A stretch of DNA of 64,000 nucleotides, from contig CABZEG010000002.1 of the NCBI GenBank assembly GCA_902524655.1, positions 1 to 64,000 of the forward strand, in the 5' to 3' direction. The DNA is from an uncultured Alphaproteobacteria bacterium. GTDB taxonomy: Bacteria > Pseudomonadota > Alphaproteobacteria > Rhodobacterales > Rhodobacteraceae. Of this stretch, positions 43,353-53,094 are shown piece after piece. A program made the position numbers and the translations under genes. The number at the start of each line of letters is the position of its first letter. Within the stretch, counting starts at the first letter, position 1. The notes beneath the pieces are model-generated. The model searched no databases. It was not told where the DNA came from and saw nothing but the letters and a program-made list of their open reading frames with translations.

Positions 43353-43438
43353 GGAGGGGTGGCAGAGCGGTCAAATGCAACGGACTGTAACTCCGTCGGG
43401 GAAACCCTACATAGGTTCGAATCCTATCCCCTCCACCA
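43353..43438 (+). tRNA. tRNA-Tyr (anticodon GTA)
   Basis: The 86-nt gene has acceptor GGAGGGG/CCCCTCC, anticodon loop CTGTAAC with GTA, a long variable arm (type II tRNA), T arm TAGGTTCGAATCCTA and encoded CCA. The anticodon-to-variable-arm segment (43387-43404) is repeated 158 bp downstream, just before an integrase gene, so it appears to be an integration target. Confidence 0.97.
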
Positions 43439-43514: not shown

Positions 43515-43572
43515 AGTTACACACAGTTACACACTAAACTAAAAGTAAATCCGTCGGGGAAAGTGTGTAACT
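43515..43572. promoter_or_regulatory. Putative integrase-binding site: tRNA core copy bracketed by decamers
   Basis: GTAAATCCGTCGGGGAAA (43545-43562) matches the tRNA-Tyr segment 43387-43404 at 17 of 18 positions. On its left are two adjoining direct copies of AGTTACACAC (43515-43524 and 43525-43534); on its right is one inverted copy, GTGTGTAACT (43563-43572), ending 1 bp before the integrase ATG. This core-plus-arms layout is that of a phage-type attachment site. The inverted decamer could also let the integrase regulate its own gene. Confidence 0.6.
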
Positions 43573-43573
43573 A

Positions 43574-44779
43574 ATGAATCAAAGTTCAGTAAATCAAATA
43601 ACTGATAAGAAACCTATTAGGACGGGTTTATCTCTTTATAAAACGGGTCGGTCACCATATTGGTTCGCACAGATCTGGGTAGGTGCAGAGAAGAAATATT
43701 ACAGAAAATCGACAAAAGAAACATCAAGGATAGAAGCAGCAAAAGTTGCAGAAGAGGTTTTTGAAAGTCTTAAAAATCAAAAAGTAAGTTTTGCATCGGT
43801 AGTTACGAAACAACTTTGCAATACTTACATAGATGAACTTATCAATCTCCAAAGGATGGAGTCTGGTAAGGGTAAAAGTAGTCGATATGCAAGAGATGAT
43901 GAAAACCTAATAAACAGAGAGGAGGAGGGGATAAGAGCATATTTCGGTAGAAGAGATATTAGTAAAATAACTACCAAAGATATTAGAATCTATTTTCTAT
44001 TTTTAGACTCTCGAAGAGATGTTCCTCTCGCACCATCAACGAGAAACAAATACCGATCGGTTTTATCAAAACTTTTTAGACTTGCGTATGAAGAGGGTGC
44101 GATCAATAAACCCATCATAATGCCGAAGTTTGAGGAAAAACGAGATAACCCTAGACCCTCATTTAATGATGATGAATATAAGCACCTACTCGATACAATA
44201 AGGAAAATGGCAGACTCTAAAGTACGAATAGAGGGAATGCATATAGATAATGAGTTTTATTATTTCGTTGTCTTTCTTACTGCATCATTTATGCGACCAG
44301 TAAAGAGCGAAATATTCAATATTAGATACAGAGATATTGAGGTTTATACTAACCCCGATTATTTGGAAATAAGAGTGACGGGTAAGACAGGTTACAGGTC
44401 TGTAAGAACGATGCCGAATGCAGTAGATTATTTTACAAAGTTGCGAGACATAAGAAGACCTAAAATTAAAGAGAAAGATTTTTTATTCTTCAATCATTTC
44501 CCAAATAGAAATACTGCAAGAGATAATGCAATGAGATGTTTTGATCTTATTTTGAGAGAAGCAAACTTGAAGAAAACAAAAGACGGACAAAATCGTTCTT
44601 TATATTCTTTGCGTCATTATTCACTCCAAACAAGGTTGATAAAGAGTAAAGGGAAAGTGAATATCTTTGTCCTGGCAAAGAATGCTGGAACAAGTGTCAA
44701 TCAACTTGAAAGGTTTTACTTGAGACACCTTGATCCTAATGACGATATTGTTAAAAACCTACAAACGTTTGGAAACTAA
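43574..44779 (+). CDS. Tyrosine recombinase/integrase
   Basis: The 401-aa protein has an N-terminal DNA-binding part, a SAM-like core-binding domain (about 75-180) and a catalytic domain (about 195-390). The first catalytic Arg is in FLTASFMRPVKSEI (Arg241), with Lys271 probably following. The HxxR box reads YSLRHY (Tyr344...Arg347), so the usual His is replaced. The nucleophile is Tyr382 in QLERFYLRHL. It sits directly beside tRNA-Tyr and the core-and-arms site. It would catalyse integration and excision of the island; the lost His may lower activity. Confidence 0.85.
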   Translation: MNQSSVNQITDKKPIRTGLSLYKTGRSPYWFAQIWVGAEKKYYRKSTKETSRIEAAKVAEEVFESLKNQKVSFASVVTKQLCNTYIDELINLQRMESGKGKSSRYARDDENLINREEEGIRAYFGRRDISKITTKDIRIYFLFLDSRRDVPLAPSTRNKYRSVLSKLFRLAYEEGAINKPIIMPKFEEKRDNPRPSFNDDEYKHLLDTIRKMADSKVRIEGMHIDNEFYYFVVFLTASFMRPVKSEIFNIRYRDIEVYTNPDYLEIRVTGKTGYRSVRTMPNAVDYFTKLRDIRRPKIKEKDFLFFNHFPNRNTARDNAMRCFDLILREANLKKTKDGQNRSLYSLRHYSLQTRLIKSKGKVNIFVLAKNAGTSVNQLERFYLRHLDPNDDIVKNLQTFGN

Positions 44780-45690: not shown

Positions 45691-45704
45691 ACATCAACTC
45701 TAAA

Positions 45705-45783
45705 CTGCTTATTACTGGTCGGTCAATCACCTCTAAAAAATGCGAATATGTATTTGTAAGAAACAATAACAACGGAGAAAAAA
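45705..45783 (+). repeat. Duplicated leader, copy 1
   Basis: Two blocks are shared with copy 2. The first starts CTGCTTATTACTGGTCGGT (45705-45723). The second is TGTAAGAAACAATAACAA (45755-45772), leading into GGAGAAAAAAATGA with the ribosome site and start codon. Between them the copies differ. Promoter or regulatory function is likely, as each copy sits directly before a small gene. Confidence 0.6.
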
Positions 45784-46047
45784 ATGACTAATCAGAATCA
45801 CAAACATACAGAAAAGTTTGGAGACTTTGCACACGACTTGATGTTCCAGTTTTTTTTGGGACAGGACGTTGGAAAAAACTACAAAACCAATGGTAGTGGA
45901 TTTTTAGGTAACAACTCTTTTTGGACTTCAACGACATTAGGAACAAAGAACATAACAATCGTTGCGATTGAAGATAATGACAATGAGTTTTTTAGAAATG
46001 TTTTGGAGTTCAACAAAAAGAGAAACGCAAAAAAAGAGGTCGCATAA
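45784..46047 (+). CDS. Small unknown island protein, 87 aa
   Basis: ATG start with ribosome site GGAG 6 nt upstream. The 87-aa product has a His/Thr-rich start, a middle with FLGQDVGKNYKTNGSGFLGNNSFW and a basic end (KKRNAKKEVA). It contains no recognised motif. It is preceded by the first duplicated leader and divergent from the 184-aa gene. A regulator or structural element of the island is possible; nothing shows which. Confidence 0.5.
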   Translation: MTNQNHKHTEKFGDFAHDLMFQFFLGQDVGKNYKTNGSGFLGNNSFWTSTTLGTKNITIVAIEDNDNEFFRNVLEFNKKRNAKKEVA

Positions 46048-46126
46048 CTGCTTATTACTGGTCGGTTATTCGACCACCGAAACCACTAAAATGAATATGT
46101 AAGAAACAATAACAAAGGAGAAAAAA
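46048..46126 (+). repeat. Duplicated leader, copy 2
   Basis: CTGCTTATTACTGGTCGGT (46048-46066) and TGTAAGAAACAATAACAA (46098-46115) repeat copy 1, followed by AAGGAG and ATG at 46127. GGTCGGTTATTCGACC within it can form a GGTCG/CGACC hairpin (46060-46075). The two matched leaders suggest co-regulation of the 87-aa and 78-aa genes. Confidence 0.6.
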
Positions 46127-46363
46127 ATGAAAAATGAAACCACAATCAAAATCAATCAAGTCAATAGTTTGCTCTCGCAAGTTCTTGATCTCATAACAGA
46201 GGATGTCTTGTCCTATTGTGATGCTGGTGATGTTAGAGACACCCTGTTGGGAATAGATGGGTCTTTTATCGACAGACAGAATACAGGATTGAACTTCACC
46301 AACATCCTCGTTGGGAGGATTGAAGAGATCGAGGACGAATATGGTTTAGAGGAGATTGAATAA
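46127..46363 (+). CDS. Small unknown acidic island protein, 78 aa
   Basis: The 78-aa product is acidic (IEEIEDEYGLEEIE at the end) and likely helical, without recognised motifs. It follows the second duplicated leader and has a good ribosome site. The next gene, the HUH candidate, starts 57 bp later. Small size and acidity are common in anti-repressors and phage modulators, but no function can be assigned. Confidence 0.5.
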   Translation: MKNETTIKINQVNSLLSQVLDLITEDVLSYCDAGDVRDTLLGIDGSFIDRQNTGLNFTNILVGRIEEIEDEYGLEEIE

Positions 46364-46420: not shown

Positions 46421-46885
46421 ATGAAACATACTAATAAAAATGATAATAAACTTTGGTTAAATGGTTTTGCTATTACCAGACCCATTTATCTAACTCTGGG
46501 TTTCAACGATTATGTAAAGTTTGGTGATGGAGAAAAAACAAAAGAGAGAATGAAGAAAAACCACAAACATTTTTTCAATGAACTTCACCGACAGGTTTAT
46601 ACAAAATCCAAGAAAAAAATAACCAGATATATTGTGATTGAACGAGGTGGAAAAACTGGTGGGTTTCACTCTCATAGTCTCATAGAAACACCAGAACATC
46701 TATCAACTGCCAGGTATGAAAATATACTGGAACAAAGTTGGTTGAAAACAAAAGACAGAGTTTCGTTAGATACGGACTCAAACGTCTATGACAGGAAAGG
46801 GTTGGACGGATATAATACCAAACAACTTTTTCCAAAGAATACGAATGCAGAAGTAGATTTTATGAACTGTCATAGGACTCTCTAA
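46421..46885 (+). CDS. Putative HUH-type replication initiator-like protein
   Basis: The 154-aa product shows three blocks in the order used by rolling-circle initiators: a hydrophobic strand PIYLTLGF (residues 21-28), a His-x-His in GFHSHSLIET (His83, His85) and a Tyr with a Lys three residues on, GYNTKQLF (Tyr131, Lys134). A basic KKKITRYIVIERGG stretch precedes the HxH. HUH proteins nick one DNA strand through the Tyr, with metal held by the histidines. The element would thus have replicated or mobilised as ssDNA. Length is short for a full Rep, and motif spacing was not compared to a profile. Confidence 0.5.
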   Translation: MKHTNKNDNKLWLNGFAITRPIYLTLGFNDYVKFGDGEKTKERMKKNHKHFFNELHRQVYTKSKKKITRYIVIERGGKTGGFHSHSLIETPEHLSTARYENILEQSWLKTKDRVSLDTDSNVYDRKGLDGYNTKQLFPKNTNAEVDFMNCHRTL

Positions 46886-47074: not shown

Positions 47075-47305
47075 ATGAGATATGAAACTGATATAACAGA
47101 TACGAAAATACAAACCCCTGCTGAAGATGATATTAGAGGTGCTGATGTTTGTTATGAATATGGTGATTGTCTAAAAGAAACTCTAACTTGGGATAAGGTT
47201 TGCAAACAACTGAATAAACCAAGATTTAGAGATACTGGATTACGGAAAACAAGATTCAGTTTGATTGGAGAGTCCCTATCAAAGAACAGAAGGAATAAGA
47301 GATAA
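47075..47305 (+). CDS. Small unknown island protein, 76 aa
   Basis: The 76-aa product has an acidic N-terminal half with two cysteines (VCYEYGDCLKE) and a basic arginine-rich C-terminus (FRDTGLRKTRFSLIGESLSKNRRNKR). No family is recognised. Its stop overlaps the start of the ribbon-helix-helix gene by 1 bp (TAATG), so the two are probably translated together; a protein-protein or antidote relationship is possible but not shown. Confidence 0.45.
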   Translation: MRYETDITDTKIQTPAEDDIRGADVCYEYGDCLKETLTWDKVCKQLNKPRFRDTGLRKTRFSLIGESLSKNRRNKR

Positions 47306-47496
47306 TGAAAACACATAACTACCCTTTGAGAATCCAAGATGAAGTTTGGAATGACCTAAAAAGAATCCAACAACTTGATAAACAATCTGCGAATAGTCTT
47401 ATAAACGAGGGAGTGCGTATGGTTATTGCAGACAAACTCCAAAAGATTTCTCAACGACGAAAATACAGGAACTCATTAGAGGGAATGACTGCATAA
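47305..47496 (+). CDS. Ribbon-helix-helix DNA-binding protein
   Basis: The 63-aa product fits the CopG/Arc ribbon-helix-helix pattern: a short N-terminal strand (YPLRIQDEVWNDLKRIQ) followed by two helices with the turn SANSLINEGVRMVIAD. Such proteins bind operators as dimers and often control plasmid copy number or toxin-antitoxin operons. It is translationally coupled to the preceding small gene. Confidence 0.6.
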   Translation: MKTHNYPLRIQDEVWNDLKRIQQLDKQSANSLINEGVRMVIADKLQKISQRRKYRNSLEGMTA

Positions 47497-47522
47497 TGAA
47501 GATGCGACCAATCCAGAAGTTT

Positions 47523-47604
47523 AGAAACACCTGTTAATGTAGTTTAAGTAATTAATTTTATTGGGTTTTTTTTGACCCTACAGAGTGATAGGGTAAGTGT
47601 TTCT
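47523..47604. repeat. Nested inverted repeats before the GIY-YIG/MORN gene
   Basis: AGAAACAC (47523-47530) and GTGTTTCT (47597-47604) form an outer inverted repeat; ACCCTA (47575-47580) and TAGGGT (47589-47594) form an inner hairpin with an 8-nt loop. They lie in the 188-bp gap upstream of the fusion gene and could be a terminator, an operator or the border of an insertion. Confidence 0.4.
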
Positions 47605-47684
47605 GTATGGGTGCGTTTCTGATATAGTTTACGAGTGTTCAATTTATCACTAAGTTTTTTTGAAATATATAGAGGTGAAAGAAC

Positions 47685-48854
47685 TTGGCAGGTTTTGTCT
47701 ATATTATGTCTAACCCTTCTATTCCAGGATTATTAAAGATTGGGGTAACTGACAAAGATCCAGAGGAGTTCAGGTCTAAAGAACTATACAATACATCCAC
47801 TCCAGATCCTTTTAAGGTTGAATATTACGCCTACACGATGGACCATAATATTATTGAAAGAGAAACTCACGAAAAATTAAAAAACTATAGGCATTCTAAT
47901 TCAAGAGAATTCTTCTCCTGTGATGTGATCACTGCAATAAATACAATTCAAAGTATTGCTGGCAGAAGAATAAAGTATGATGAAACCTCCTACAGTACTG
48001 AAGAAACTCTTCTTACAGATCCGTCAAGTGATCAAAGTTCAATAAAAAGAGGCATTTACAACCAAAATAACTATTCACCAGACCTAAATGAACCGTCTTT
48101 TTCAGAGCATGGTAAGTTGATTGAAAAAAATTGGTTGAATGGGAAAACTTTCAGTAAGGGATATGTTCGAAATGGAAAAAAAGAGGGAAATTGGAGACGT
48201 TTTTATGAGAGTGGTTCTCTTAAGCATAGAGAGATTTATAAAAATGGAATTATTGAGAGTTGGGAAGTTTTCTATCAAAATGGCAACCTACAACGAATGG
48301 GATACTATAAAGATGCTAAAAGAGACGGTAGATGGGAACAATATTTTCCTAATGGACAAATCAATTGGACAGGAGTTTTCGTTTCGGGAAGGAAAGATGG
48401 ACTTTGGGAGACCTATCATAAAAATGGACAAATGTATTTGTCAGAAAAATATCTGCTCGGGACTTTAAATGGACCTTGGTCGGAGTTTTCTGAACAGGGA
48501 CAGTTACTTAACAAGGGCATTTACTATGAGGGTCGTGAAGAGGGCGAATGGCAAGGGTATTATGAAAATGGAAAGCAAAGGTATAAAGGATTATTTACAA
48601 AGGGAACTCCTGAGGGAAAGTGGGAGCGTTTTTGGAGTAATGGTCAACTTATGTCTCAAGGAATCTTTATCAAAGGTCAAGAAGACGGCGCTTGGAAACG
48701 TTACCACGGTACAGGGAAACTATCTTCAGTAGGGAATTACAATCTTGGGAAGAAGGACGAAACTTGGGAATACTTTGATGAAGATGGAAATTGTTTAAAG
48801 GAAGAAAAGTGGTCAAATGGGTTTCTCTCAAAGAATAAAATTAAAACATATTAA
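47685..48854 (+). CDS. GIY-YIG (T5orf172-like) domain fused to MORN-type repeats
   Basis: The 389-aa protein starts at TTG with AGAGGTGA 10 nt upstream. Residues 1-95 match the T5orf172/MUG113 branch of the GIY-YIG superfamily: FVYIMSN (GIY strand, 4-10), LLKIGVT (YIG strand, 17-23), Arg30 in EEFRSKELYNTSTPDPF, and ERETHEKLKNYRHSNSREFF. After a linker (95-140), residues 141-389 hold nine or ten repeats of 23-24 residues, each of the type W-x-x-Y/F-x-x-N-G-Q/N-L-x-x-x-G-x-Y/F-x-x-G-x-x-x-G, as in MORN_2 proteins such as the YwqK antitoxin family. A nuclease-like domain and an antitoxin-like repeat in one chain is unusual. Activity is inferred; the C-terminal role may be protein or membrane binding. 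Confidence 0.75.
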   Translation: MAGFVYIMSNPSIPGLLKIGVTDKDPEEFRSKELYNTSTPDPFKVEYYAYTMDHNIIERETHEKLKNYRHSNSREFFSCDVITAINTIQSIAGRRIKYDETSYSTEETLLTDPSSDQSSIKRGIYNQNNYSPDLNEPSFSEHGKLIEKNWLNGKTFSKGYVRNGKKEGNWRRFYESGSLKHREIYKNGIIESWEVFYQNGNLQRMGYYKDAKRDGRWEQYFPNGQINWTGVFVSGRKDGLWETYHKNGQMYLSEKYLLGTLNGPWSEFSEQGQLLNKGIYYEGREEGEWQGYYENGKQRYKGLFTKGTPEGKWERFWSNGQLMSQGIFIKGQEDGAWKRYHGTGKLSSVGNYNLGKKDETWEYFDEDGNCLKEEKWSNGFLSKNKIKTY

Positions 48855-49089
48855 CCAAAGTCTTATCAATCACCTCCAAACTAAAATCAGAACGAACCTC
48901 AGCGTATTCTTTCTCTAACTTCTCATCTTTCAGTCTTTTCTTCTTCGCAATTGAATGTAAATGATTGCCTTTTAACTTCTTTTTACGAACGGATAGGTAA
49001 CCTTTCTTGTTTAACCATTCTGCGATTCGGTCAACGGTCTTACCTTTGTCTCTTTGTTCAATGATTGTCTGATAGAGAAAGAATTGGTA
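48841..49089 (-). pseudogene. Decayed gene fragment, repeat copy 1
   Basis: On the minus strand an uninterrupted frame without a start codon encodes a C-terminal fragment of about 80 aa (VDRIAEWLNKKGYLSVRKKK, then HLHSIAKKKRLKDEKLEKEY) ending in LVNMF and a stop at 48841-48843. An upstream stop at 49090-49092 confirms it is truncated. The helix-turn-helix-like IAEWLNKKGYLSV block suggests a DNA-binding protein. It is over 90% identical (by eye) to copy 3 in their overlap. Confidence 0.65.
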
Positions 49090-49137
49090 TTATTAAATGA
49101 AGCAATTCTGACCAATAGACCTAGAGAAGGATAATAG

Positions 49138-50210: not shown

Positions 50211-50393
50211 TTAAAAATCCTCATACATATTAACCAAAGTTCCATCAACTACCTCCAAACTAAAATCAGACCACACCTCTGGATACACTCTTTCTAATTT
50301 CTCATCTTTCAGTCTTTTCTTCTTAACGATTGAATTAACATGATTGCCTTTGAACTTCTTACCACGTACGGAGAGATAACATTTGTTGTTCGT
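50211..50393 (-). pseudogene. Decayed gene fragment, repeat copy 2
   Basis: On the minus strand the frame encodes a fragment that matches copy 1 (YLSVRGKKFKGNHVNSIVKK, KRLKDEKLERVYPEVWSDFS, LEVVDGTLVNMYEDF and stop at 50211). It retains the most complete C-terminus (MYEDF) but loses the N-terminal side. Sequence divergence from copies 1 and 3 is higher, so it may be older. No start codon or ribosome site is present. Confidence 0.65.
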
Positions 50394-50459: not shown

Positions 50460-50750
50460 ATGAAAAAGGGATATATAATAGGGCAAATAACGATTACAAA
50501 TGCTGAAAATTATAAGGCATATGCTTCTAGTACTGAACAAATTATAAAGAAGTTTGGAGGAAAATATTTGGTTAGGGGAGGAGAACAAGAGATAAAAGAG
50601 GGCAATCCAAGTGGTAATCGTAATGTGGTCGTTGAGTTTGAAAGTACTGAAAGAGCAAATGCTTTTTATAATTCGGAGGAATATGCAAAAATTATAGATA
50701 TCCGCAAGGATAATTCTGAAGGATATTTTGTTATAATCGAAGGTTATTAA
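50460..50750 (+). CDS. DUF1330 family protein
   Basis: The 96-aa protein matches DUF1330: an initial strand GYIIGQITITNAENYKAY, a central GGKYLVRGG and the ending FESTERANAFYNSEEYAKIIDIRK... VIIEGY. The domain belongs to the dimeric alpha/beta-barrel superfamily; its role is unknown. Ribosome site AGGAGAA precedes the ATG. It lies between copies 2 and 3 of the decayed fragment. Confidence 0.85.
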   Translation: MKKGYIIGQITITNAENYKAYASSTEQIIKKFGGKYLVRGGEQEIKEGNPSGNRNVVVEFESTERANAFYNSEEYAKIIDIRKDNSEGYFVIIEGY

Positions 50751-50788
50751 ACACTTTCAAACTTTAATCAAACTAATTAAATGGGTCG

Positions 50789-50906
50789 TTTCTTTCTAAC
50801 TTCTCATCTTTCAGTCTTTTCTTCTTCACAATTGAATGTAAATGATTGCCTTTTAACTTCTTTTTACGAACGGATAGGTAACCACTCTTGTTTAACTATT
50901 CTGCGA
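50789..50906 (-). pseudogene. Decayed gene fragment, repeat copy 3
   Basis: The segment repeats the middle of copy 1 (YLSVRKKKLKGNHLHSIVKK, KRLKDEKLE) with over 90% nucleotide identity by eye. A TGG-to-TAG change in the AEW codon introduces a stop, and the sequence past LERN departs from the other copies. It is therefore truncated at both ends. Confidence 0.65.
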
Positions 50907-51131: not shown

Positions 51132-51264
51132 ACGTCTCAAATAGGTATACTCTAACAAAAATTTTCATCATTAATAATTAATGTTTCAATAGAGTAACTT
51201 CTTGACGTGTGGGACACGATTCTTTAGGTTTTTAATAGTAAATGAGACACTTTTGGAGTATATG

Positions 51265-51804
51265 ATGAGATATGGATACGCAAGAGCTTCGACCTCCGAC
51301 AAAGATTTAGAACTTCAGAGGAATGCACTTCTATTTGCTGGGTGTGACGTAGTTCGACGGGAAAAAGTTTCTGGAACATCACTTAAAGGTAGTTCAGAAC
51401 TTCAAACTCTTCTGGAGTTTGTTAGAAAAGGTGACGAGTTAGTTGTGACTCGAATTGATAGACTAGCAAGATCAATGAGAGATCTCCAGAACATAGTTAA
51501 CGCCCTTACAGAAAAGGGAGTTCATTTTTCTGCAATAGAACAGTCGGTTAATACTTCCACACCAGAGGGTAAATGTTTCCTCGATATGTTAGGAGTGTTT
51601 GCAGAATTTGAGACTCGATTGAGACATGAAAGACAAATGGAAGGTATCAAAAAAGCAAAAGAAAGAGGGGTCTACAAGGGGAGGAAACAGAGTGTAGATG
51701 TCATGAAGATCAAGGAACTCGCATCAGAGGGTTTTATGAAGACGGAGATAGCAAAGAGACTTGGTATAGGTAGAGCGACTGTTTACAAAGCATTAAGTGA
51801 TTAA
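51265..51804 (+). CDS. Serine recombinase/resolvase
   Basis: The 179-aa protein has the resolvase/invertase catalytic domain: YGYARASTSDKDLELQRNAL with Ser about residue 9, RIDRLARSMRDLQ with the active-site Arg residues, and FAEFETRLRHERQMEGI. The C-terminus has a helix-turn-helix (IKELASEGFMKTEIAKRLGIGRATVYKAL). Upstream start choices are ATG at 51262 or 51265; GGAG at 51255-51258 fits the second. It is the last gene of the island and may have mediated its insertion, resolution or inversion. Confidence 0.9.
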   Translation: MRYGYARASTSDKDLELQRNALLFAGCDVVRREKVSGTSLKGSSELQTLLEFVRKGDELVVTRIDRLARSMRDLQNIVNALTEKGVHFSAIEQSVNTSTPEGKCFLDMLGVFAEFETRLRHERQMEGIKKAKERGVYKGRKQSVDVMKIKELASEGFMKTEIAKRLGIGRATVYKALSD

Positions 51805-52137: not shown

Positions 52138-53094
52138 ATGAAAAAAAAAGATGTTCAAAAAATTGGAAGATTTGTCATTGAAACAGAGGCTTACGCGCTT
52201 TTAAAACTAGCATCTGATTTGCCTGCAGATTTTTCAGATACCATCAAAGCAGTCTTGAAGACAAAGGGTAGAGTTGTGGTGTCAGGTGTAGGTAAATCTG
52301 GTCACATTGGTAGAAAAATTGCAGCGACTTTGGCCAGCACAGGTACACCAGCGAGCTTCGTCCATTCAACTGAAGCAAGTCATGGGGATTTAGGAATGAT
52401 TACCCGAGATGATTTTTGCTTACTTATTTCTAATTCCGGCGAAACGTCAGAGCTTAATGACATTTTAGCCCATACTAGACGATTTGGTATTCTTACGGCT
52501 GTTATATCTTCTTCTATAAACAGCACACTTATGAGAGCCGCTGACTTTAAGCTAGTGTTAACCGATGCTCCTGAAGCCTGTGCTATAGGAATGGCGCCTA
52601 CGACATCGACGGCGCTCACCATGGCTTTAGGAGATGCGTTAGCTGTATCACTGATGGAGCAACGAGATTTCAAGCCTGAGGACTTTAAGGTCTTACATCC
52701 TGGAGGAAATCTTGGTTTGCAAATGCTAACGGTTTCACAATTAATGCGTAAGAAAAAAGAAATAGCGGTCGTAAAACAAGATCTGAACATGGAAAATATA
52801 GTTTCTCGTATGAATGATACAGGATTTGGTGTTGCAATTTTAGTAGATGAAACAGGTGCTCTATCTGGAGTGATTACGGATGGGGATTTAAGAAGAAACA
52901 TTAATAATATTGCTAATTCTTCGCCAAGAGAAATAGCTACATTAAACCCGATATCAGTCAAACCTCTTGACTTAGTATCTGTAGCGTTAGAAAAAATGGA
53001 AAATTCTAAAGTTTACGTCATCGTTGTGATTGAAGACGATCGGCCCGTAGGGCTTTTGCGTATGCATGATATTTTGCGTTCGGGGATTAAATGA
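52138..53094 (+). CDS. kpsF: D-arabinose 5-phosphate isomerase (KpsF/GutQ/KdsD)
   Basis: The 318-aa enzyme makes arabinose-5-phosphate, the first precursor of KDO in lipopolysaccharide. It has an SIS sugar isomerase domain with VVSGVGKSGHIGRKIAATLASTGTPA, STEASHGDLGMI, NSGETSELNDIL and TTSTALTMALGDALA, then two CBS domains (about 200-318). It has no obvious ribosome site. It overlaps kdsB by 4 bp (ATGA), an arrangement that fits the KDO pathway. Confidence 0.95.
   Translation: MKKKDVQKIGRFVIETEAYALLKLASDLPADFSDTIKAVLKTKGRVVVSGVGKSGHIGRKIAATLASTGTPASFVHSTEASHGDLGMITRDDFCLLISNSGETSELNDILAHTRRFGILTAVISSSINSTLMRAADFKLVLTDAPEACAIGMAPTTSTALTMALGDALAVSLMEQRDFKPEDFKVLHPGGNLGLQMLTVSQLMRKKKEIAVVKQDLNMENIVSRMNDTGFGVAILVDETGALSGVITDGDLRRNINNIANSSPREIATLNPISVKPLDLVSVALEKMENSKVYVIVVIEDDRPVGLLRMHDILRSGIK

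Follow-up and report, generated by a model that had tools for sequence, protein, structure and literature searches.

The window analyzed here is a 64,000-nucleotide stretch of an alphaproteobacterial draft genome, whose tmRNA was given the ARAGORN asterisk that denotes the permuted form typical of Alphaproteobacteria. On the plus strand of the window, at 47685-48854, lies a gene without internal stops that encodes 389 amino acids from a TTG start. By profile, its product, referred to below as the fusion protein, is both a T5orf172 protein and a MORN_2 protein: Pfam placed T5orf172 at residues 3-90 (E 2.5e-12, 47.6 bits versus a cut-off of 20), MUG113 at residues 17-82 (E 2.5e-12, 47.6 bits versus 22.3), and MORN_2 on seven stretches (E 1.7e-23, 80.3 bits versus 29.6), all exceeding the curated Pfam cut-offs. 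The T5orf172 domain, of the GIY-YIG superfamily (47691..47954, +), was delimited by Pfam, conserved columns, and a structural model, and it carries Arg30, Glu58, His62, and an REFF motif at residues 74-77. It is followed by a linker (47961..48104, +; approximately residues 93-140) with low pLDDT and no Pfam match, and by the MORN_2 array (48105..48824, +; residues 141-380), where Pfam, the model, and Foldseek agree and ten 24-residue units can be counted by eye. A ribosome-site-like GAGGTG (47672..47677, +; by eye) precedes the TTG by 7 nt, and the TTG start aligns with the ATG start of a relative, L253 (MDGFIYIM).

A preliminary description of this DNA had proposed a nuclease-superfamily domain with the strands FVYIM and LLKIG, Arg30, and REFF, fused to an array of 23- to 24-residue repeats in a gene with its own ribosome site. 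All of these elements were located, and profile searches of both halves returned PF10544, MUG113, and PF07661 above their cut-offs. The label "YwqK-type" given to the repeats is an annotation name, and the only two NCBIfam matches of the protein, both far below cut-off, were to the LIC20035 adhesin and BPSS1187 families and included no YwqK family. A PDB sequence search with the fusion protein gave no match, and the profile search of the PDB gave weak matches, none better than E 0.19 and mostly to SET7/9.

The gene resides in an island that spans from a tRNA-Tyr gene at its left edge (43353..43438, +) to a gene at 52138 that we take, from its sequence, to be kdsD-like. Along the plus strand the island carries a phage-type integrase gene (43574..44779; PHROG phrog_1, E 3e-26, with weak Pfam integrase matches below cut-off), a Rep-like gene (46421..46885; REP_ORF2-G2P below cut-off, HSH motif by eye), a gene for a small, weakly Arc-like protein just before the cargo slot (47305..47496; phrog_582, E 0.039, and no Pfam match at E 1), and, in its right part, a serine resolvase/invertase gene (51202..51804; Pfam PF00239, E 3.6e-38). 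The integrase, Rep-like, and resolvase genes beside tRNA-Tyr, together with a comparison with the island of genome G019, bear out the mobile setting that had been described. When stretches around the kdsD-like gene were compared among relatives, tRNA-Tyr was present in eight of nine, and in G005 and G014 the two genes are approximately 65 bp apart, representing an empty site. The only recurrence of an 18-nt piece of the tRNA within the window is at 43545-43562, with one mismatch, where chance alone would give 0.02 matches. In G011 (L224), a 58-bp copy of the tRNA-Tyr 3′ end (98% identity) lies near the far island end as an attachment-site-like duplication. The island also contains a 90-nt direct repeat (45703-45792 and 46046-46135, 79% identity); both copies finish with a ribosome-site-like sequence plus an ATG, and each precedes a different small gene.

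Judged by sequence comparison, the fusion gene is a cargo insert in a variable slot. The G019 island is nearly identical (integrase, 96%; small Arc-like protein, 98%; a 98-amino-acid protein, 100%; GST, 97%; DUF1330, 98%) and lacks the fusion gene, with homology breaking at window position 47521 and returning at 48981. In the G011 island, homology reaches 47629 and gives way to a slot with different genes (L224 10054-11704, minus strand), which encode a GIY-YIG protein (PF01541, E 3.7e-6), a DUF4184/YdjM-like, membrane-protein-like product whose matches were below cut-offs, and a MORN_2 protein (E 1.3e-12), with stop/start overlap at both junctions of this three-gene run (by eye). Relatives of the G011 GIY-YIG protein were found in 1 of 22 genus genomes (itself) and weakly in 2 of 289 class genomes, and it had no plasmid match; the run is a single observation, suggestive rather than a rule.

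The slot also bears on the possibility that the protein is a homing or element-maintenance endonuclease that aids movement of the island or of cassettes, its array positioning it on the recombination complex of the element. T5orf172 domains are frequent among phage homing endonucleases (PMC10448857), and the fusion gene is flanked on both sides by interspersed repeats, within an island that also encodes an integrase, a Rep-like protein, and a resolvase. We nevertheless consider such a role quite unlikely, since the closely similar G019 island lacks the fusion gene, which therefore appears dispensable for island persistence. Moreover, T5orf172 homing endonucleases are marked by Zn-finger DNA-binding domains of the CapR/DUF723 type, and 200 of 229 contain a Zn-finger domain (PMC10448857), whereas Pfam models searched at E 1 revealed no Zn finger or other DNA-binding family in the fusion protein.

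The upstream one of the two flanking repeats is a copy of a "leader" repeat of the genus (47535..47630, +), an interspersed element of about 96 nt that may act as a promoter, a terminator, or a recombination site and that was found in 11 of 22 genus genomes, the source genome included, and in the same arrays as the downstream repeat, D1; its 16 aligned copies showed a mean column identity of 83%. Nested inverted repeats had been described in this region, of which a short hairpin (47575-47594) is present, but an RNA structure was rejected, as 47500-47684 folds no better than shuffles (z −0.44), and 47535-47630 is instead the interspersed leader copy. In L233 (8631-10502) and L237 (17608-19431), a leader copy lies right at the 3′ end of a glmS-like gene (by eye). 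The D1 repeat (48846..49090, +) overlaps the last 9 nt of the fusion gene, and further copies follow at 50225..50390 and 50727..50892 (both +). This interspersed repeat of about 245 nt was detected in 16 of 22 genus genomes; read on the minus strand, it is similar to part of a PF07508 (recombinase) domain, and a frame that contains D1 matches this family with an E of 2.2e-6. A conserved peptide is encoded by most of the 23 near-full D1 copies and some contain stops, and the D1 protein had no relatives in viral contigs.

In several arrays, D1 and leader copies sit between single genes, some of which recur in changed order, an arrangement that recalls an integron array. The D1-spaced genes (L233-L242, L224) include those for GST, DsrE, DUF1330, MarC, MORN, and other proteins. 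A scan of 124 array proteins, of 192 frames listed, ranked MORN and DsrE as the commonest Pfam families (7 proteins each), with 5 GST and 4 MORN_2 proteins (best 25 of 83 families). The flanking repeats, the recurring genes, and the commonness of MORN families in the arrays suggest, short of proof, that the fusion arose by the joining of two array cassettes.

Such a joining could have been a recent accident, or the gene could be an assembly chimera, in either case with no selected joint function; the fusion was seen only once in the sets searched, MORN and MORN_2 are among the commoner array families, and the genome is a draft (71% complete, 72 contigs). We regard this as improbable, given that the gene is a single open frame of 391 codons without a stop, that GC3 is alike in its three parts (0.305, 0.244, and 0.321), that other matches within the source genome are only 29 to 38% identical, and that the repeats have diverged from one another while the frame has stayed intact.

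To describe conservation in the nuclease half, the fusion protein was aligned with 85 non-redundant relatives drawn from 116 T5orf172 frames. R30 and E58 were the sole invariant columns (86/86), and Y6, N10, K18, G20, H62, R69, E75, F76, and F77 were among the columns conserved in at least 90% of the proteins; the catalytic positions are thus likely intact. In a full-length model, residues 1-90 formed a block with a pLDDT of 81 to 98 in the order strand-strand-helix-strand-helix-helix, which we take to be that of GIY-YIG domains. PDB comparisons of the model covered almost exclusively the repeat half, which is the part that Foldseek with the full model and VIA probed, so that the absence of a GIY-YIG entry among the 50 matches listed excludes nothing. 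The predicted catalytic glutamates of two related proteins have been shown to matter: E180 of Gp88, a T5orf172/GIY-YIG protein, is required for cutting (PMC8263062), and E414 of SNIPE is required for defense (PMC13190303). By analogy, we infer that E58 occupies the equivalent position. Among PADLOC families, the nuclease half matched best PDC-S57 (E 2.8e-26, profile positions 5-109 of 212), and PD-Lambda-1 matched residues 2-103 (E 3.1e-7). On the basis of profiles and conserved residues, the N-terminal T5orf172 domain is probably an active GIY-YIG-superfamily nuclease.

The repeat half was confidently modeled as a MORN stack. The model of residues 136-389, built with eight relatives, had a pLDDT of 92.9, a pTM of 0.80, and 21 strands in MORN-type hairpins, and its eight best PDB rows in Foldseek were all MORN1 (E 1.2e-9 to 1.3e-7; TM-score by query length, 0.45 to 0.50), from crystal structures of the Trypanosoma, Toxoplasma, and Plasmodium proteins. 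In the full-length model (pTM 0.34), residues 103-177 had a pLDDT below 50, and there were no confident contacts between the nuclease and repeat halves. The authors of the MORN1 structures regard MORN repeats as protein-protein interaction modules (PMC7725318).

These properties bear on a self-restrained toxin, in which the MORN_2 array would fold back on or block the nuclease until proteolysis or another trigger released it, for abortive infection or addiction. YwqK, a frequent name of MORN_2 proteins, denotes in Bacillus subtilis a protein listed as the antitoxin to YwqJ (PMC8321402), and the linker, modeled without confidence, may be flexible. This mechanism is unlikely in our estimation, because the full-length model places the two halves in no confident contact, and because YwqK is a protein separate from its toxin, the delivered and deaminase-like YwqJ, which does not resemble a T5orf172 nuclease (PMC8321402). 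Furthermore, the first 300,000 characters of a large survey of polymorphic toxins mention neither MORN nor T5orf172 nor GIY-YIG (PMC3482391). The antitoxin idea of the preliminary description therefore appears weak, MORN repeats being interaction modules in the source cited above. At the sequence level, self-restraint and tethering would look alike.

The rarity of the domain pair was evaluated in several overlapping collections. Besides the fusion gene, 222 loci contained 116 T5orf172 frames, partly redundant, none of which matched the repeats too, and later loci yielded a further T5orf172 protein, L253, likewise without repeats; together with the Pfam matches, this agrees with the unusual pairing noted at the outset. 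MORN_2 was found in 1 of 86 scanned proteins, namely, the fusion protein, and DUF4041 was found in 3. A query with the full protein, its own genome counted, gave matches in 34 of 101 genomes of relatives, 50 of 398 phylum genomes, and 75 of 385 class genomes, and among these matches the fusion gene alone had both halves in one frame (at most 4 candidates were scored per genome in the phylum and class searches, and the sample sets overlap). Viral contigs gave no match when searched with the protein alone and no second fusion when searched by alignment (best 80 of 131), while phages and plasmids contained no place that spanned 80% of the query. A search of genome contigs returned 11 loci with matches confined to residues 109-389. 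The PF10544 search of the 385 class genomes, from which 30 loci were fetched, missed the source genome itself and hence produces false negatives; within the genus, T5orf172 was present in 2 of 22 genomes. No second fusion was thus encountered in the overlapping sets searched, and we make no claim of uniqueness. Among the open-licence PMC papers searched, none contained both "GIY-YIG" and "MORN repeat," and none combined "MORN repeat" with "nuclease" and "phage defence."

The closest T5orf172 protein found was L253, from a class genome, which is 39% identical over residues 2-127 (E 6.1e-24) and had no relatives in viral contigs. It shares with the fusion protein a one-residue insertion just before R30 that is missing in most other relatives. 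In a tree, the fusion protein, L253, and L131 (from a viral contig) formed a clade with a support of 0.904, and the fusion protein and L253 alone were grouped with a support of 0.422. L253 and L131 thus have the T5orf172 domains closest to that of the fusion protein, but they lack MORN repeats and carry membrane-type hydrophobic segments behind the nuclease (residues 170-188 of L253 and 175-193 of the L131 frame), where the fusion protein has its array; a simple hydropathy scan revealed no such segment in the fusion protein. Hydrophobic segments outside the T5orf172 domain were detected in 10 of 85 relatives, L131 among them. Since L253 and L131 gave no BLASTP alignment outside the nuclease domain, their segments may be independent gains.

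Among the closest known systems is SNIPE (PD-Lambda-1), described in 2026 as a membrane-bound GIY-YIG nuclease that tells phage from host DNA by location, not by sequence (PMC13190303). Its nuclease domain is related to that of the fusion protein, as reflected by the PADLOC match given above, and in both proteins a second part may govern the site of nuclease action. SNIPE homologues in which no membrane segment is predicted often have PH-like or DivIVA-like parts instead, and SNIPE deprived of its membrane segment is toxic (PMC13190303). In architecture the two differ: SNIPE combines a membrane-recruiting N-terminal part with DUF4041, whereas the fusion protein has an N-terminal nuclease, starting at residue 3, and a MORN_2 array. 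Identity with SNIPE was rejected on these grounds, with no DUF4041 (Pfam, E 1) and no membrane segment (hydropathy scan) in the fusion protein. Identity with a YwqK antitoxin was rejected as well, as the repeats are fused behind a nuclease and no YwqK model was among the two NCBIfam matches. YwqK-named and other MORN_2 proteins share these repeats, but they are separate proteins, and 15 of 17 examples from the genus have a hydrophobic signal-like start (by eye), whereas the fusion protein starts with its nuclease. The sequence features examined place it outside both SNIPE and the YwqK antitoxins.

Other T5orf172 proteins are comparably modular. Odn/Gp88 of phage ICP1 and the T5orf172 homing endonucleases also join this domain to a targeting part, but they target through RepA_N or repeated Zn-finger DNA-binding domains (PMC8263062, PMC10448857), and the nuclease of Gp88 is C-terminal (PMC8263062) versus N-terminal in the fusion protein. 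PDC-S57, a PADLOC candidate defense family, has its nuclease half at the N terminus as the fusion protein does, but the C-terminal half of its 212-position profile is unmatched; the name "PDC-S57" occurs in none of the open-licence PMC papers searched. With its pairing of T5orf172 and MORN_2, the fusion protein may represent a novel form of an established type of defense enzyme.

We tentatively favor the view that the fusion gene encodes a single-gene anti-phage or anti-element nuclease, loosely SNIPE-like, that is docked and restrained by its MORN_2 stack. As defense-type cargo of an integrative island, the gene would supply an N-terminal T5orf172 domain that cuts incoming DNA and a MORN_2 array that serves as the scaffold for docking and restraint. 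The array would hold the nuclease with an envelope-associated partner or with a protein of an incoming phage or element, and this docking would keep it off the host chromosome, so that incoming DNA is cut. In such a protein, the array would replace the membrane-recruiting part of SNIPE or the membrane-type segments of the nearest relatives. We infer nuclease activity, defense, docking, restraint, and any membrane link of the fusion protein from the PADLOC matches, the intact catalytic-type residues, the variable slot, the hydrophobic segments of relatives, and the SNIPE precedent. The coupled GIY-YIG, DUF4184-like, and MORN_2 genes in the same slot of G011 also argue for it.

The defense role suggested in the preliminary description thus gains from the PDC-S57 and PD-Lambda-1 matches, but PDC-S57 is itself only a candidate family, and the match covers half of its profile. 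Several observations argue against a docked defense nuclease. The protein has an N-terminal nuclease and neither DUF4041 nor a membrane segment, unlike SNIPE; the commonest array families include non-defense genes (DsrE, GST, and MarC, among the best 25 of 83); the best 25 of 94 PADLOC families among the 124 array proteins are all DNA methyltransferases, with 2 members each; T5orf172 is common in phages (184 phage records) and in homing endonucleases (PMC10448857); the G011 run occurs in 1 of 22 genus genomes; and the membrane-type comparison rests on segments present in only 10 of 85 relatives and on two proteins, L253 and L131, that are unalignable outside the domain. In addition, no evidence was obtained that Trypanosoma brucei MORN1 binds membranes (PMC7725318).

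A broader proposition, which we consider doubtful, is that MORN_2 arrays are a general recruiting module of GIY-YIG-superfamily defense nucleases, interchangeable with membrane anchors and either fused or supplied as a coupled partner; the gene described here would be the fused form, and the G011 run, with its nuclease and membrane protein, would be the coupled form. If true, SNIPE-like nucleases would include a MORN-guided branch whose repeats use their surfaces to recognize the invading particle or the entry site. With a SNIPE-related nuclease domain joined to a MORN half, it becomes possible to test whether a repeat scaffold can control a nuclease through location or through a partner. Such control would also offer a role for bacterial MORN_2 proteins, several of which bear the name "YwqK family antitoxin" in plasmid records.

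The fusion also suggests a route by which a cassette array could build new nuclease architectures. Two of the 124 array proteins were DNA methylases. In one cassette array (L235 8903-12427), a DNA cytosine methyltransferase-like gene and the two genes that follow it perhaps form a restriction-modification system (by eye).
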